Origin: Paracoccus versutus
Lineage (GTDB): Bacteria > Pseudomonadota > Alphaproteobacteria > Rhodobacterales > Rhodobacteraceae
Reading direction: 5' to 3'
NCBI RefSeq assembly: GCF_000763885.1
Contig: NZ_JRKO01000010.1
Span: 1-64,000 of the forward strand
DNA length: 64,000 nucleotides
This document shows positions 11,495 through 60,509 of this stretch, in pieces. Each line of letters starts with the position of its first letter. Position 1 is the stretch's first letter. The notes under the pieces are model-generated. The model had not been told where the DNA came from, did not search any database, and saw nothing but the letters and a program-made list of their open reading frames with translations. The position numbers and the translations under genes are program-made.

Positions 11495-14398
11495 TCAGCG
11501 CCCGTCCAGCATCCGCAATTCATGGGTGCGGCCCGCCTTGACATAGGTCAGCCGTCCGTCGCCGATGGAATTGATCGTGCCGCCGTCGATGCGGTCGCCC
11601 AGCCGGACCGTCACCACCTTGCCGCTGCGCAGCCGGATCAGCGCGCGGCTGGCCTTGCCGGCGCCGATGATGCCGATGACCGTGGTGCGGCCCATGTCGA
11701 TGCCGCGCGCCTGGGTCGCGGCCTTGGCCACCGAGGCCGAAGTCGCGCCCTTGGGCAGGGCGTTGGCAGCGATCTCGGGCTCGTTGTCGATCTCGGGCGG
11801 CTTGTAGTCCTGGCGTTGGGCGCGGGCGGCCCGTTCCTCGGCTGCGGCCTGGGCGCGGGCGCGGGCCTCGGCCTGGGCGCGGGCCTCGGCCTCGGCCTTG
11901 GCGTCGGCGGCGGCGCGGGCGCGGATGCGCGCCTCGGCCTGGGCCTGCAACTGCTCGTCAAGCTTGCGGCGGGCGGCCAGTTCGGCCTCGCTGGGTCCGG
12001 GCGCGGCCGCGGGCGCAGCGGCCGGGGCCTCGGCCGTCGGTGCCGCATCGGGGGCCGCGCGCTCGCCGCGCCGGGGCGGCAGGGGCGAGGAAGCCAGCGC
12101 CGAAAGCCGCACCCCGCCCGGCGTGGCGGGCGAAGCCGCGACCGCGGCCGAGATGGCGGCCGACGCGCCAGGACGGGCGCGGGGCCGGGCCGAGCCACGC
12201 AAAAGCCCGCCCGAATCCTGGGCGGGCGCGGCGGCGCTTTCGACATGGTCGGGCTTGTCTGGTGGCGGCGTGGTCGCCGATCTCACCGCGGCGTCGATGG
12301 CCGATGGGCTGGCGGCATCGCTGGCCGAACCGGGCTTGCGCTGCGGCCGCGCCTGCGCCAGCCGCTCGCCGCGGGGCGGGGATTGCTGCACGACCAGCCC
12401 ATCGCGGCCGAGGTCGCGGATAAGGTCGCGCAGATGCCCCTGTTCGGCCGGGGTCAGGTCGTCGGCAGACAGGCCCGCGCTCGGAACCTCGGGGGTCGAG
12501 CCCTCGGGGCGCGACGGCGGCCGGGCCGAGCCGCGCAGCATCGCATTGCCGGTCGCGGCGACGGGCTGGACGGCGGGCTCCTGCGCCGGGGCCGGTGTCG
12601 GCGCCGGCGTCGACGTCGGGGCGGCGGCGGCGGGCGGCGCGGCGCGGCTGCGTCCGGGCGGCCGCGCGCTGCCGACGGGCTGGGCACGGGACTGGCTGGC
12701 CTCATAGGGCAGCGGGTTCGAGGGCACGCGCGGCGCGGTATCGGCCCGCGGCGCCGAAGTCTGCGGCGTGCTGCGGCGCGGCGCAAGCTGCGGCCGGGCC
12801 GAACTGGTCAGACCGGCGGCGACCGGCGCGGGCCGGGGCGGCGCGGCAGCGGGGGCCGAGGTCGCGGCGGGCAGCGTGGCGGCCTGGGCGGCGCTGGCCG
12901 TGGCGTCGTCCGGCGCGGGTGCGGCGGGCTCCGGCGCCGCTGCTGGCGCGGCGCTCTGCGCCGCGGGCGGCACCACGGCAGCTGCGACCGCGGCAGCGGC
13001 GACCATGACCCGGCGCCGTTCCTCCTCGGTCAGGGCCGAAAGCGGCGCGGCTGCAGGCTCGGCCGCCGCGCGCTGCTCCGGCGCCGGGGCAGACGCGGGC
13101 TGGGACGCTGGCTCAGGCGCAGCCTCTGCCGGGGCGGGCTCGGTCGCGGCCGACGGAGAAGCGGTCGGTGCGGGCGTGGGTTCCCGTGCGGGTTCCGGCG
13201 CGGGTTCGGCTTCGGCCGCCGGCACCTGCTCGGCCGGGGCGGCTGCGGCAAGCTGCGCTTCCTGCCGGTCCGGCACCAGGAAGGCCCAGATCAGGATCAG
13301 CCCGACGACCAGCGCGCCCAGCATGGCGATCAGCCCGGCAAGCCCGCCCCGTTCGCCGGGACGGCGGGGCTGGGCCGGGGCGGCGCCCGCCGGTCGGGGG
13401 GCACGGCGGGCATCCGCCGCGCGTTCATGCACGGCGCGGGCCCGCGGGTTCAGCGCGGCGCCTGCCTGCGGCACGGCTTCGGGCCGCGAGCCGGGTCCGG
13501 CCTCCGGCGCAGCCGCGTCAGGCTGGTCCGGCTCTGCCGCTTCGAGCGTCTCCGAAGCATCGCTTTCCGCTGGGGCGGCCTCCTCAGGGGTCGAGGCCGG
13601 ATCAGCCCTCTCAGCTTCCTCAGATTTTTCGATGTTATTTTCGATGAATACCGCAGCTTCCTCGGAAAACCCGACCCTCTCGCCCGGCTCCGCCTGCGGG
13701 GCCGGATCGTCGCCGGCCTCCCCGTCAGCCACCGGCTCGGGCACATTTTCCGCCGCATCCTCCGGCGCCTCGGAACCGTCGCCGTCGAGATCCAGCGCGT
13801 CCTGGGTTTCGGCCGGCTCTTCCTCGATCAGCAGCGCCGAGGCCGTCACGCCGGCCTGCGCCGGATCGACCTGCGGGCGGCTGCGCGGCGCCGCCTCCAG
13901 CACGAAGACCGGCTCGCCCGGATAAAGTCCCGCGGCCGGCGCGGCGCAGTATCCCCGCCCATCGAACCCGTATTGCCGGGCGAAATCGCGGGCCTCGCGC
14001 AGGGTCTGGCGGGCCACGGCGGCGACGCGGACGCTGTCGCCCTCGCCCTGCCAGTCAAAGGCCAGATCCTCGATCGCATAGGGGGTCAGCCCGTCCAGCG
14101 CGCGGCCCACCGCATGGTCGCGATCCGCACCCGGCGCGACCGTCAGCGTCGTGTAGAGGATCTGGTCGTCGGGAATGATCAGCACGACGGGCAGCACCGC
14201 CTCGTCCCCGGTCGCCATGGCGCGCAGCCGCGCCAGCGCGTCGTGAAAGTCGGGCGAGGCGAAATCGACCGAGCCCAGATGCCGCCAAGCCCCCGGCGCG
14301 ACGCCGTCCTGCCCCTGCGGGCCCCGCTCGCGACGTTCCAGATGCACAGCATCCTCGCTGAAGGAGAGTGCGTATTCGGTGACGGAATCAAGCGACAT
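11495..14398 (-). CDS. Bitopic protein: GspL/PilM-like cytoplasmic domain, Ala/Pro-rich linker, PilP/GspC-like C-terminal domain
   Basis: This 967-residue protein has four parts. Residues 1-170 resemble the actin-like cytoplasmic domain of GspL/PilM (a PVVLIIPDDQILYTTLTV strand followed by ..ALDGLTPYAIEDLAFDW). An acidic, low-complexity stretch follows, then one membrane helix at about residues 351-374. A roughly 500-residue Ala/Pro/Arg-rich region contains repeated SARPxxRP motifs and a charged helix of AEARARAQAEA type. The last 70 residues look like the PilP/GspC homology region (GKVVTVRLGDRIDGG). No other type II secretion or type IV pilus gene is near. Such proteins are often misnamed initiation factor IF-2 because of composition; no GTPase motif is present. 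Domain assignments are by eye. Confidence 0.6.
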   Translation of the reverse strand: MSLDSVTEYALSFSEDAVHLERRERGPQGQDGVAPGAWRHLGSVDFASPDFHDALARLRAMATGDEAVLPVVLIIPDDQILYTTLTVAPGADRDHAVGRALDGLTPYAIEDLAFDWQGEGDSVRVAAVARQTLREARDFARQYGFDGRGYCAAPAAGLYPGEPVFVLEAAPRSRPQVDPAQAGVTASALLIEEEPAETQDALDLDGDGSEAPEDAAENVPEPVADGEAGDDPAPQAEPGERVGFSEEAAVFIENNIEKSEEAERADPASTPEEAAPAESDASETLEAAEPDQPDAAAPEAGPGSRPEAVPQAGAALNPRARAVHERAADARRAPRPAGAAPAQPRRPGERGGLAGLIAMLGALVVGLILIWAFLVPDRQEAQLAAAAPAEQVPAAEAEPAPEPAREPTPAPTASPSAATEPAPAEAAPEPASQPASAPAPEQRAAAEPAAAPLSALTEEERRRVMVAAAAVAAAVVPPAAQSAAPAAAPEPAAPAPDDATASAAQAATLPAATSAPAAAPPRPAPVAAGLTSSARPQLAPRRSTPQTSAPRADTAPRVPSNPLPYEASQSRAQPVGSARPPGRSRAAPPAAAAPTSTPAPTPAPAQEPAVQPVAATGNAMLRGSARPPSRPEGSTPEVPSAGLSADDLTPAEQGHLRDLIRDLGRDGLVVQQSPPRGERLAQARPQRKPGSASDAASPSAIDAAVRSATTPPPDKPDHVESAAAPAQDSGGLLRGSARPRARPGASAAISAAVAASPATPGGVRLSALASSPLPPRRGERAAPDAAPTAEAPAAAPAAAPGPSEAELAARRKLDEQLQAQAEARIRARAAADAKAEAEARAQAEARARAQAAAEERAARAQRQDYKPPEIDNEPEIAANALPKGATSASVAKAATQARGIDMGRTTVIGIIGAGKASRALIRLRSGKVVTVRLGDRIDGGTINSIGDGRLTYVKAGRTHELRMLDGR

Positions 14399-14606: not shown

Positions 14607-15470
14607 ATGCCCCGATTCCGACCCCTGCTGGCCGCCACGACGCTGATCGTTCTGGGCGCCGGCCCGCTGCTGGCCCAGACCGCCCCGGCCGACGCGCCGC
14701 CGCCGCCCGCGCAGATGGGACATCACATGATGAAACATGCAGCCCCCTTCGCCAAGCTGACCGTGACCGGCACCGGCCATGCCACGATCCAGCCCGACAT
14801 GGCCACGATCACCCTGGGCGTCAGCACCCGCGCCGCCACCGCGGCCGAGGCGATGACGCAGAACGCCGAGCAGCAGGCCAAGGTCATCGAGACGCTGAAG
14901 GCCGAGGGGATCGAGGCGCGCGACATCCAGACCTCGGGGCTGAACCTGTCACCGGTCATGGATTACTCGGACCAGGGCCAGCCGCCGAAGCTGACCGGCT
15001 ATGGCGCGCAGAACAGCGTGACCGTGCGGGTGCGCGACATCGCCGGGCTGGGCGCGGTGCTGGACAAGCTGGTCGCCTCGGGCGCCAACGAGATCAGCGG
15101 CATCGCGTTTTCGCGCGAGGACATGGCCGAGGCCGAGGACCAGGCCCGCAGCGAGGCCGTGGCCGAGGCGCGCCGCCGCGCCGAGGTGATGGCCGAGGCG
15201 GCGGGGATGCGGCTTGGCCGGCTGATCTCGCTTTCCGAGGCACCGACGGGCGGCGGGCCGCGCCCGATGATGGCCATGCGCGCCCAGGCGGCCGGCTCGG
15301 CCGATACGCCCATCGAGGCGGGCGAGTTGGCCGTCAGCGCCGATGTCACCGCGGTCTTCGCCATGCGCCCGGCCGATGCGCCGCAAGGCGGCGAGCCGCC
15401 CGAAGGTGAAATCACACCCGAGGGAGAAATCGCACCCGAGGAGCCCCCGATCGAGGCTCCGGCGAACTGA
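14607..15470 (+). CDS. Periplasmic SIMPL (DUF541) domain protein
   Basis: The 287-residue protein has a signal peptide cut near A23 (LLA-Q) and a SIMPL domain that begins TVTGTGHATIQPDMATITLGV and contains the typical helix pair (AEAMTQNAEQQAKVIETL) and YGAQNSVTVRVRD strand. The C-terminus carries a short acidic repeat (PEGEI twice). SIMPL proteins are oligomeric periplasmic or outer-membrane-associated proteins such as E. coli YggE, linked to oxidative stress; the exact role is unknown. AAGGAG precedes the ATG. A terminator follows. Confidence 0.85.
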   Translation: MPRFRPLLAATTLIVLGAGPLLAQTAPADAPPPPAQMGHHMMKHAAPFAKLTVTGTGHATIQPDMATITLGVSTRAATAAEAMTQNAEQQAKVIETLKAEGIEARDIQTSGLNLSPVMDYSDQGQPPKLTGYGAQNSVTVRVRDIAGLGAVLDKLVASGANEISGIAFSREDMAEAEDQARSEAVAEARRRAEVMAEAAGMRLGRLISLSEAPTGGGPRPMMAMRAQAAGSADTPIEAGELAVSADVTAVFAMRPADAPQGGEPPEGEITPEGEIAPEEPPIEAPAN

Positions 15471-15511: not shown

Positions 15512-16798
15512 TCAGGCCGTGGCAGCCGCCAGCGCCTGGTCCAGGTCGGCGATGATGTCGGCCGCGTCCTCGATCCCGATCGAGAGCCGCACCACGTCCG
15601 GCCCGGCGCCGGCCGCGATCTTCTGCTCGTCGGTCAGCTGGCTGTGCGTGGTCGAGGCGGAATGGATCACCAGCGAGCGCGCATCGCCCAGGTTCGCCAC
15701 ATGGCTGAAGAGCTTGAGGTTATCCACCAGCTTCACCGCCGCGTCGTAGCCCCCCTTGATCGCAAAGGTGAACAGCGCCCCCGCCCCCTTGGGATAGACC
15801 CGCCGCGCCGTCTCGTTCCAGGGCGACGAGGCAAGGCCGGCATAGGTGACCGAGGTCACGCGCGGATCGTTTTCCAGCCATTCCGCGACCTCGAGCGCGT
15901 TCTCGACATGGCGGGCCATGCGCAGGCCCAGGGTCTCGATCCCCATCAGCGTGTAATGCGCGGCCTGCGGGTTCATGGTCATGCCCAGGTCGCGCAGCCC
16001 GATGGCGATGCCGTGGAAGGTATAGGCCAGCGCGCCGAAGGTTTCGTGGAACTTCAGCCCGTGATAGGCTGGCTCGGGCTGGGACAGGCTGGGGAACTTG
16101 TCCGAGGCCGACCAGTCGAACCGGCCCGAATCGACGATGGCCCCGCCCGTCACCGTGCCGTTGCCGGTCATGTATTTGGTCAGGCTGTGGACCACCAGCG
16201 TCGCGCCCAGCTCGATGGGCTTGCACAGCCAGGGCGTGGCCAGGGTGTTGTCGACGATCAGCGGCAGGCCGGCCTGCTCCGCAACCTCGGCCACCGCCGG
16301 GATGTCGGTGACATAGCCGCCCGGATTGCTGATCGATTCGCAGAAGATGGCGCGGGTGTCGTCGTCGATGGCGGCGCGCAGCGCGTCCAGGTCGTCCAGG
16401 TCCACGAATTTGCACGACCAGCCGAAGCGCTTGATGGTCTGGCTGAACTGGGTGATGGTGCCGCCGTAAAGCCGGGTCGAGGCGATCAGGTTCCGGCCCG
16501 GCCCCATCAGCGGGAACAGCGCCATGATCTGCGCGGCATGCCCCGAGGAACAGCAGACCGCGCCGGCCCCGCCCTCCAGCTCGGCCACCCGCGCCTGCAG
16601 CGCGGCGACGGTGGGGTTGGTCAGGCGGGAATAGATATAGCCGACCTCTTGCAGGCCAAAGAGCCGCGCGGCATGGGCGGCGTCCTGAAAGACATAGGCC
16701 GTGGTCTGATAGATCGGCACCTGCCGCGCCCCGGTCGCCGGGTCGGGCGCGCTGCCTGCATGGATGGCGGTGGTGTCGAAACCCCAATTCTCGGACAT
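15512..16798 (-). CDS. metY: O-acetylhomoserine (thiol)-lyase, direct sulfhydrylation
   Basis: The 428-residue PLP enzyme makes homocysteine from O-acetylhomoserine and sulfide. The PLP-binding lysine is K208 in HSLTKYMTGNG. The VPIYQTTAYVF and YSRLTNPT motifs and the length (about 430 rather than about 390 residues) separate it from cystathionine gamma-synthase. metH, which methylates the homocysteine, lies 1.2 kb upstream on the same strand. The 245 bases before the gene contain no SAM-II or SAM/SAH riboswitch I can recognise. Confidence 0.9.
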   Translation of the reverse strand: MSENWGFDTTAIHAGSAPDPATGARQVPIYQTTAYVFQDAAHAARLFGLQEVGYIYSRLTNPTVAALQARVAELEGGAGAVCCSSGHAAQIMALFPLMGPGRNLIASTRLYGGTITQFSQTIKRFGWSCKFVDLDDLDALRAAIDDDTRAIFCESISNPGGYVTDIPAVAEVAEQAGLPLIVDNTLATPWLCKPIELGATLVVHSLTKYMTGNGTVTGGAIVDSGRFDWSASDKFPSLSQPEPAYHGLKFHETFGALAYTFHGIAIGLRDLGMTMNPQAAHYTLMGIETLGLRMARHVENALEVAEWLENDPRVTSVTYAGLASSPWNETARRVYPKGAGALFTFAIKGGYDAAVKLVDNLKLFSHVANLGDARSLVIHSASTTHSQLTDEQKIAAGAGPDVVRLSIGIEDAADIIADLDQALAAATA

Positions 16799-59708: not shown

Positions 59709-60509
59709 TCATTCGCCGGAGGCGCTTTCGGCCTGGGTCTTTGCCGCCTTGGCACCCTGTCCGCGGCCGGTTTTCGCCGAGGCCTTGGCACCTTCCTCGG
59801 CCGGTTTCTTGCGGCTGCGCGGCGCGGCCGCCCCGGTGGTGCGGCTGCTGCGCCGGCGCGCCGCAGGGGCGGGCTCGGCGGCCGGTTCCCCGGCTGCCGC
59901 GTTCTCGGCGGGGGCCGGTGCGGCCGGGGTCGGTTCGGCAGGGGTTTCGGACCGGACGGCGCTTTCCGGGGTTTCCACCGGGCCGGCGGCATCCTCGTCG
60001 GCAGCGATCACCGGCGGCAGCCCGGAATCGGCGGGCGCGGCGGCGGGCTGGGCGCGTTCTTCCGCGCGGGGGGCGGGCTGCTGGCGTTCCTCGCGGCGGT
60101 CATCGCGACGCTCGTCGCGGCGATCCTCGCGCCGGTCGTGACGGTCCTGGCGGTGGCCGTGATGGCCGTTCTGGCCATTGCCGTTCTCGGACGCAGCCGA
60201 GCCATTGCCGTCCTGGGCATCATCGTCGCGGCCCTGGTGCTGGTGGCCCTGGCGCTCGGCCTGCTCGCGCTGCGCCTCGCCCAGCATGCGGGTGTAATGT
60301 TCTGCGTGCTGAAGAAAGCTCTGCTCGGCCACCCGGTCGTTGGAAAGCTGGGCGTCGCGGGCGAGCGTCAGGTATTTCTCGATGATCTGCTGGGGCGTGC
60401 CGCGCACCTTGCCCTCGGGGCCCGAGGAATCGAAGACGCGGTTGACGATATTGCCCAGCGAACGCTGGCGGTTCGACTTGTTACGCGAACGGGATTTGGA
60501 TGATCTCAT
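59709..60509 (-). CDS. DUF4167 family protein with charged repeats
   Basis: The 266-residue protein starts with the DUF4167 core (residues 1-80: RSRNKSNRQRSLGNIVNRVFDSSGPEGKVRG, then a helical YTRML segment), which is basic and probably binds RNA or DNA. A long low-complexity region follows, including an HRxDR/RRDDRRE-type repeat and an Ala/Pro/Lys tail. Function is unknown. It is conserved in Rhizobiales and Rhodobacterales. It may be co-transcribed with prfA-prmC, whose stop lies 245 bases upstream. Confidence 0.75.
   Translation of the reverse strand: MRSSKSRSRNKSNRQRSLGNIVNRVFDSSGPEGKVRGTPQQIIEKYLTLARDAQLSNDRVAEQSFLQHAEHYTRMLGEAQREQAERQGHQHQGRDDDAQDGNGSAASENGNGQNGHHGHRQDRHDRREDRRDERRDDRREERQQPAPRAEERAQPAAAPADSGLPPVIAADEDAAGPVETPESAVRSETPAEPTPAAPAPAENAAAGEPAAEPAPAARRRSSRTTGAAAPRSRKKPAEEGAKASAKTGRGQGAKAAKTQAESASGE

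Follow-up and report, generated by a model that had tools for sequence, protein, structure and literature searches.

Architecture of the fusion gene

The window analysed here, a stretch of 64,000 nucleotides from Paracoccus versutus (Paracoccaceae, order Rhodobacterales in the NCBI taxonomy), carries a gene for a 967-residue protein (P0001) in which a GspL/PilM-like domain at the N-terminus and a domain resembling the PilP/GspC homology region (HR) at the C-terminus are joined in one polypeptide, which we will call the fusion (Table 1). Sequence and predicted models support the view that the product is a single-pass inner-membrane protein, with a GspL/PilM-type cytoplasmic scaffold domain linked to a periplasmic GspC/PilP-type HR domain. 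The membrane helix is preceded by 356 residues and followed by an Ala/Pro-rich stretch, 527 residues long as far as the HR fold and 488 as far as the point where the C-domain alignment begins. A conserved ASVAKAAT segment, seen both in the C-domain alignment and in the family consensus, starts at residue 886 and closes this stretch, and the chain ends two residues past the HR. The initial annotation of the gene, read from the letters alone, had described one membrane helix and an Ala/Pro-rich linker of about 500 residues; the hydropathy scan places the one helix at residues 357–375, and either way of counting agrees with the linker length.

Topology was compared in 47 proteins, namely the window's own and those of the 46 out of 48 further loci in which both domains lie in one open frame. 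The 48 loci comprise 40 genomes (one per genus label, picked from the listed stronger matches, with weaker matches under-represented) and eight named Paracoccus loci. At the other two loci (L008 and L097) the ends of the fusion are in different frames, by a frameshift or a sequencing error. By the charge rule the orientation is N-in/C-out in all 47 proteins, each having more Lys/Arg in the 20 residues before the helix than in the 20 after it. A simple hydropathy scan finds a single hydrophobic segment in 43 of them and more in four, and the periplasmic linker ranges from 287 to 574 residues. We consider the gene to be real and under selection because it has homologues in the eight named Paracoccus loci (identity 69–86% in the N-domain and 79–95% in the C-domain) and because of the NG86 dN/dS values against Paracoccus sp. 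MKU1 (L006), which are 0.19 for the N-domain, 0.24 for the C-domain, 0.29 for the periplasmic linker and 0.46 for the cytoplasmic linker.

Table 1. Coordinates of the fusion gene, its parts and its neighbours in the window, with the HR-only protein of locus L100
Feature	Position	Strand	Basis
Gene for the 967-residue GspL/PilM-HR fusion protein (P0001)	11495..14398	-	ORF and translation, ATG start; homologues, purifying selection
N-terminal GspL/PilM-like domain, residues 1-167, predicted cytoplasmic	13898..14398	-	alignments, model pLDDT 70.5, Foldseek, VIA, hhalign
Low-complexity acidic linker, residues 168-356, predicted cytoplasmic	13331..13897	-	topology scan, composition
Transmembrane helix, residues 357-375, N-in/C-out	13274..13330	-	hydropathy scan, flanking charge
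Ala/Pro-rich stretch, residues 376-902, predicted periplasmic	11693..13273	-	topology scan, composition
RPxxRP motif 1, residues 626-631, within GSARPPSRPEG	12506..12523	-	
RPxxRP motif 2, residues 738-743, within GSARPRARPGA	12170..12187	-	
C-terminal PilP/GspC HR-like fold, residues 903-965, small beta domain	11504..11692	-	NCBIfam, PF04351, model, fold matches
Divergent SIMPL/DUF541 gene, neighbour in 35/49 loci	14607..15470	+	Pfam PF04402
Cys/Met PLP-dependent enzyme gene (read as metZ), neighbour in 45/49 loci	15512..16798	-	Pfam PF01053
HR-only protein of locus L100	9085-9522	-	

A GspL-like N-terminal domain

Fold comparisons of the N-domain model with known structures lead to GspL and PilM. 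Eight of the nine best Foldseek chains are GspL or PilM entries (best E 3.1e-5), the remaining one, at rank 7, being FtsA. VIA aligns the model to GspL (4pht_Y, Z 8.3, 141 residues at 4.6 Å) and to EpsL (1yf5, Z 8.2, 137 residues at 4.2 Å), with PilM 5eou_B at Z 7.2 and FtsA at Z 7.1. The GspL chains are matched across nearly the whole cytoplasmic domain, and most PilM and FtsA chains over about the first 180–220 residues: five of the six PilM rows align only within approximately residues 4–215, and 5eou_B spans residues 10–365. A Z near 8 is modest by VIA's own note, which taken alone tells against the assignment, and therefore the sequence tests count. When the 54-member N-domain alignment was compared by hhalign with PilM proteins (25, an ORF having been obtained for 25 of 30 PilM loci and the other five dropped) the result was 91.9%, and with two GspL-type proteins from outside the family (L107 and L108, described below) it was 97.1%. 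The control, 12 clusters of neighbouring open frames, gave at most 0.6%; at least three of these clusters are antisense shadow frames (asmetZ, c5 and c6, with c9 possibly another).

The N-domain column that hhalign pairs with an Asp near the PilM N-terminus holds Ser in 32, Asn in 8 and Asp in 3 of the 54 members. We take this PilM Asp to be part of the phosphate site of actin-like folds. ATP use by the N-domain looks unlikely, and the domain would rather be a GspL-like docking scaffold that uses none, since the column is mostly not Asp and the VIA matches extend as they do for GspL. A PDB profile search with the N-domain gave apparent matches (E 3e-14 and weaker) to designed TPR repeats (many copies, each worth about 3–6 bits) and to CENP-S, which we rejected as artefacts. 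A Pfam search with the full 967-residue protein of the window gave no match up to an E of 10, and thus no PilN-like periplasmic domain either.

An HR-like C-terminal domain

The C-domain model (block means of pLDDT 74–84 across model residues 51–110) is matched best in VIA by the HR of GspC (3oss_C, Z 9.7, 60 residues at 1.5 Å). Eleven of the twelve best rows are GspC, PilP, GspB or type IV pilus entries (Z 9.7–5.9), with PilP chains at Z 8.4–7.6 (we infer that 3jc8_Pa and 4av2_M are PilP), and GspB at 6.3; the remaining one is a Dot/Icm chain (7.5), and unrelated structures begin at 4.4. The Pfam PilP family PF04351 is matched by 48 of the 49 family members (best E 1.7e-6), the window's own member scoring 12.4 bits, below the cut-off of 25.6; Pfam T2SSC is matched by four of the 49, and NCBIfam pilP_fam matches the window's protein below its cut-off. 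A PDB profile search with the C-domain reached GspC and PilP only at E 0.013–0.09, with uL2 and an aminotransferase below them. It is the fold comparison that settles the identity of the domain as HR-like.

The initial annotation had read the two ends as GspL/PilM-like and PilP/GspC-like, and had named structure prediction and profile comparison as the way in which that reading could fail. With this comparison carried out, predicted fold and profile-profile alignment support the reading at the N-terminal end, and predicted fold and the PF04351 matches of the family members support it at the C-terminal end.

Several further points weigh against these assignments. Both models were built on nine close sequences (mean pLDDT 70.5 for the N-domain and 64.8 for the C-domain). 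FtsA likewise matches the N-model, in Foldseek as well as in VIA. The hhalign comparison with the two GspL-type proteins is not independent, because the same profile had found them, while that with PilM is. Pfam is weak for the N-domain, the 54 members yielding eight matches to T2SSL (best E 0.011) and five to PilM_2 (best 0.033), and the window's own member matches neither; the PDB profile search with this domain gave nothing beyond the artefacts described above. For the C-model, Foldseek returned no match with E below 0.001, the best being a type IV pilus model chain (3.4e-3) followed by GspC (4.5e-3).

Repeats in the periplasmic stretch

The motif RPxxRP occurs in 101 copies in 44 of the 47 periplasmic stretches, compared with a mean of 1.6 and a maximum of 6 in 100 shuffles, and with one copy in the cytoplasmic linkers. 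One spacing prevails: two residues separate the RP pairs in 101 cases, while any other spacing up to 12 residues gives at most 13 pairs. The eight proteins of the window and the Paracoccus loci have 19 of these copies, and 36 of the other 39 proteins have the remaining 82. Because of this enrichment and preferred spacing we regard the periplasmic stretch as something other than plain filler, and we read the repeats as putative short docking motifs. Two things speak on the other side: RP pairs as such are more frequent in the periplasmic stretch (377, against 98 in the cytoplasmic linker), and the 47 proteins are related, so that the copies are not independent. Linkers of several genera (L059–L098) carry further short patterns, for example GL[VL]..T..G in 21 of 47 proteins and DG[IVFL].V..G.P in 12 of 47, none of them found in the cytoplasmic linkers; these may be small structured elements.

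Distribution of the fusion

The gene is by no means peculiar to this genome, being near-universal in its family. The order panel consists of 196 genomes, all with one family label given by the genome search itself, which is what we mean by the family. The N-domain is present in 194 of them (two with two matches each) and the C-domain in 195; the two genomes lacking an N-domain match, G140 and G171, show weak C-domain matches. The genus panel has the N-domain in 30 of its 31 genomes, G019 being the exception. The fusion gene is thus a core gene of the family. On essentiality, passages retrieved by term from a Tn-seq paper on Rhodobacter sphaeroides (PMC5513736), without the locus tag of the orthologue to go by, gave no match. 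Outside the family, in a class search of 289 genomes (four of them from the family, with up to 12 candidates scored per genome), the N-domain profile matched 2 of 285 genomes. Both matches (L107 and L108) exceed the cut-off for the PilN family PF05137 (E about 1e-12) and stay under that for PilM_2, which is the layout of GspL. At L107 the gene belongs to a run that also holds genes for secretin, T2SSE, T2SSF, T2SSG and T2SSM, and at L108 a secretin gene is found at a distance of about 1 kb. A search of a plasmid collection gave one match, to an unannotated record.

The fusion persists where no secretin is found

Secretin searches gave no match in this genome (99.93% complete), the same search being positive in 187 of the 196 family genomes and in 6 of 14 control genomes; T2SSC had no match in this genome either. 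Of the T2SSE matches, considered as candidate secretion ATPases, the four full-length ones were rejected because they are TrbB conjugation ATPases; besides these there are two lesser matches on contigs C56 and C35. The four TrbB genes lie on four contigs (C1, C27, C39 and C51), which suggests several conjugative elements in this genome. Its single PilM_2 match, a frame of 451 residues on contig C22, we take for a putative FtsA.

Nine of the 196 family genomes have no recognisable secretin (G000, which is the present one, G052, G084, G193, G198, G215, G085, G169 and G202). All nine keep the N-domain and eight keep the C-domain; in the exception, G215, the contig breaks off about 1.2 kb from the N-domain, and the C-terminal end may be cut off. 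In the window's genus 6 of the 11 order-panel genomes have no secretin, while the N-domain is present in all 11. Since the secretin-less genomes keep both domains in this way, a secretin is unlikely to be the obligatory partner of the fusion. Each of these genomes may have lost the machine recently. The uniform spread of the gene together with its purifying selection points to a role that needs no secretin.

The initial annotation had noted that no secretion genes lie nearby, and this holds: the immediate neighbours belong to other families (see below), and PF11356, PF00263 and PF00437 have no match on the contig of the window (C10). Its suggestion that other genes of such a system might be encoded elsewhere in the genome finds no support: there is no secretin match, and the full-length T2SSE-family ATPases are all TrbB. 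The retention of the domains in secretin-less genomes also makes it unlikely that the fusion is a one-protein platform component as usually understood.

A separate HR-only relative

A second match, in a short frame that encodes a separate HR-like protein, is found in 34 of 81 family genomes, the frame being at most 137 residues long in 33. These HR-only proteins (L100 and L159–L178) have open frames of 84–145 residues, a VAxxAT-like segment similar to that of the fusion and, by eye, no hydrophobic N-terminus, which suggests that the HR-like fold may also exist in the cytoplasm. Of 21 loci (L100 and 20 chosen from these genomes), 19 carry a purF-like gene, three of them at 34–37% identity only, and 20 carry a gene for a short-chain dehydrogenase (Pfam on L100 only). 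Three HR-only proteins tested matched no Pfam family, and the protein was not seen in the five genomes of the window's genus among the 81.

Comparison with known systems

The fusion combines known domains in a new combination that is conserved across the family; a GspL/PilM-HR fusion did not turn up in the searches made of open-licence papers. Like GspL (PulL, EpsL) and PilM it has an actin-like cytoplasmic N-terminal domain, followed as in GspL by one helix, and outside the family its N-domain profile picks up proteins of GspL type. Unlike them it has no periplasmic domain recognised by Pfam as PilN-like, whereas L107 and L108 do, and its gene lies outside any gsp operon with GspD and GspE. 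From PilM it may be set apart by the limited extent of most alignments and by the substituted Asp column.

GspC, as described in passages of PMC3169554, has a short cytoplasmic part, one helix and a Pro-rich linker, and then the HR. The fusion shares the helix, the Pro-rich linker and a terminal HR; in contrast, it has a folded GspL-like domain where GspC has the short cytoplasmic part, and neither a PDZ domain nor a coiled coil follows the HR. It differs from GspC, PilP and GspB alike in a linker of several hundred residues with RPxxRP and in a genome where no secretin was found, and from PilP also in being anchored by an internal helix and not by a lipoprotein anchor, the first residues showing no signal sequence or lipobox by eye. 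Platform proteins are fused elsewhere too: parts of PMC9239104 describe a GspA-GspB fusion in Vibrio vulnificus and others, and parts of PMC3169554 a PilO-PilP fusion in Pseudomonas putida. Those are described within type II secretion systems (T2SS) or type IV pilus systems, whereas the present fusion lies outside any such locus.

TolA crosses the inner membrane once and has a long Ala-rich stretch in the periplasm, and the fusion resembles it in both respects but differs in its HR-like C-terminal fold. Membership was rejected: NCBIfam tolA_full gives 36 bits (best stretch residues 780–911) against a cut-off of 59.45, in low-complexity sequence.

Possible role of the fusion

We propose, and give an even chance to, the possibility that the fusion is a stand-alone trans-envelope tether or signal link, descended from a secretion or pilus platform and no longer needing a secretin. 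The N-domain would use no ATP and would offer a docking surface to a cytoplasmic partner, while the flexible stretch of about 500 residues would let the HR domain reach across the periplasm, with the RPxxRP repeats serving as docking sites along that reach. The HR domain could then bind a non-secretin partner in the periplasm or the outer membrane, at least in secretin-less genomes; some genomes, at any rate, must supply a partner other than a secretin. A broader version, that the fusion is a secretin-independent trans-envelope component of a core envelope system of the family, in which the HR-only protein encoded near purF might act as a regulator or competitor in the cytoplasm, we hold more tentatively, at somewhat less than an even chance.

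What tells against the tether is, firstly, that 187 of the 196 family genomes do have a secretin, so that a link with it in most species is possible. Secondly, the HR-only relative looks cytoplasmic, and the HR-like fold therefore need not be periplasmic everywhere. Thirdly, the tether role is inferred.

The prevalence of secretins in the family also favours the first alternative, which is that the fusion is a platform component of a Tad pilus or T2SS, the N-domain docking an assembly ATPase and the HR docking the secretin, and that it lingers in some genomes after recent loss of the system. GspC, GspB and PilP do bind secretins, according to passages of PMC3169554, PMC9239104 and PMC3724824. 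We nevertheless consider this unlikely, given the retention of the domains in secretin-less genomes and of the N-domain in all 11 order-panel genomes of the window's genus, the TrbB identity of the four full-length ATPases, and the purifying selection between the window and L006 (a comparison of which the secretin status of the L006 genome was not part). In addition, no secretion or pilus family was recognised among the recurrent neighbour clusters at 49 loci (most labels having been read by eye).

Slightly less likely again is a division or polar scaffold, in which an N-domain with an FtsA-type actin fold would organise the envelope at the septum or pole. FtsA chains come directly behind those of GspL and PilM in the fold comparisons (Foldseek E from 1.6e-4), and a near-universal gene, mostly in single copy, is what one would see for a core process. 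Yet GspL comes first in both fold comparisons, the sole profile matches outside the family are GspL-type, and no division gene was recognised among the recurrent neighbours at the 49 loci.

We regard it as improbable that the fusion is an accessory or sensor of a neighbouring KefB-type cation/proton antiporter. Downstream of the fusion gene, 29 of 49 loci carry a gene for such an antiporter on the same strand (Pfam Na_H_Exchanger and TrkA_N, shown for that of L001 only), at most 400 bases away in 16. In five of the eight named Paracoccus loci the antiporter's start codon overlaps the stop codon of the fusion or comes directly after it. In the other 20 loci, the window included, it was not found within 2.7–8.9 kb downstream. 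Moreover, the known ancillary proteins of KefB are soluble oxidoreductases. Finally, a functionless relic of a lost secretion system, for which the lack of a secretin match in this genome could be cited, is scarcely credible in view of the near-universal presence, the low domain dN/dS and residues that are invariant family-wide.

The persistence of this near-universal fusion where no secretin is recognised suggests that GspL/PilM and GspC/PilP domains, usually treated as parts of secretin machines, are able to function elsewhere. The fusion offers for study a minimal bridge of two domains spanning the inner membrane and points to an uncharacterised core envelope function, to which the RPxxRP repeats and the HR-only relative provide concrete handles.

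Other features of the window

The immediate neighbours of the fusion gene are the Cys/Met PLP enzyme and SIMPL/DUF541 genes of Table 1 and a Mur-ligase-type gene read as folC. Far from these, at 60029-60118 on the forward strand, ARAGORN predicts a tRNA with a two-base anticodon, its type being undetermined.

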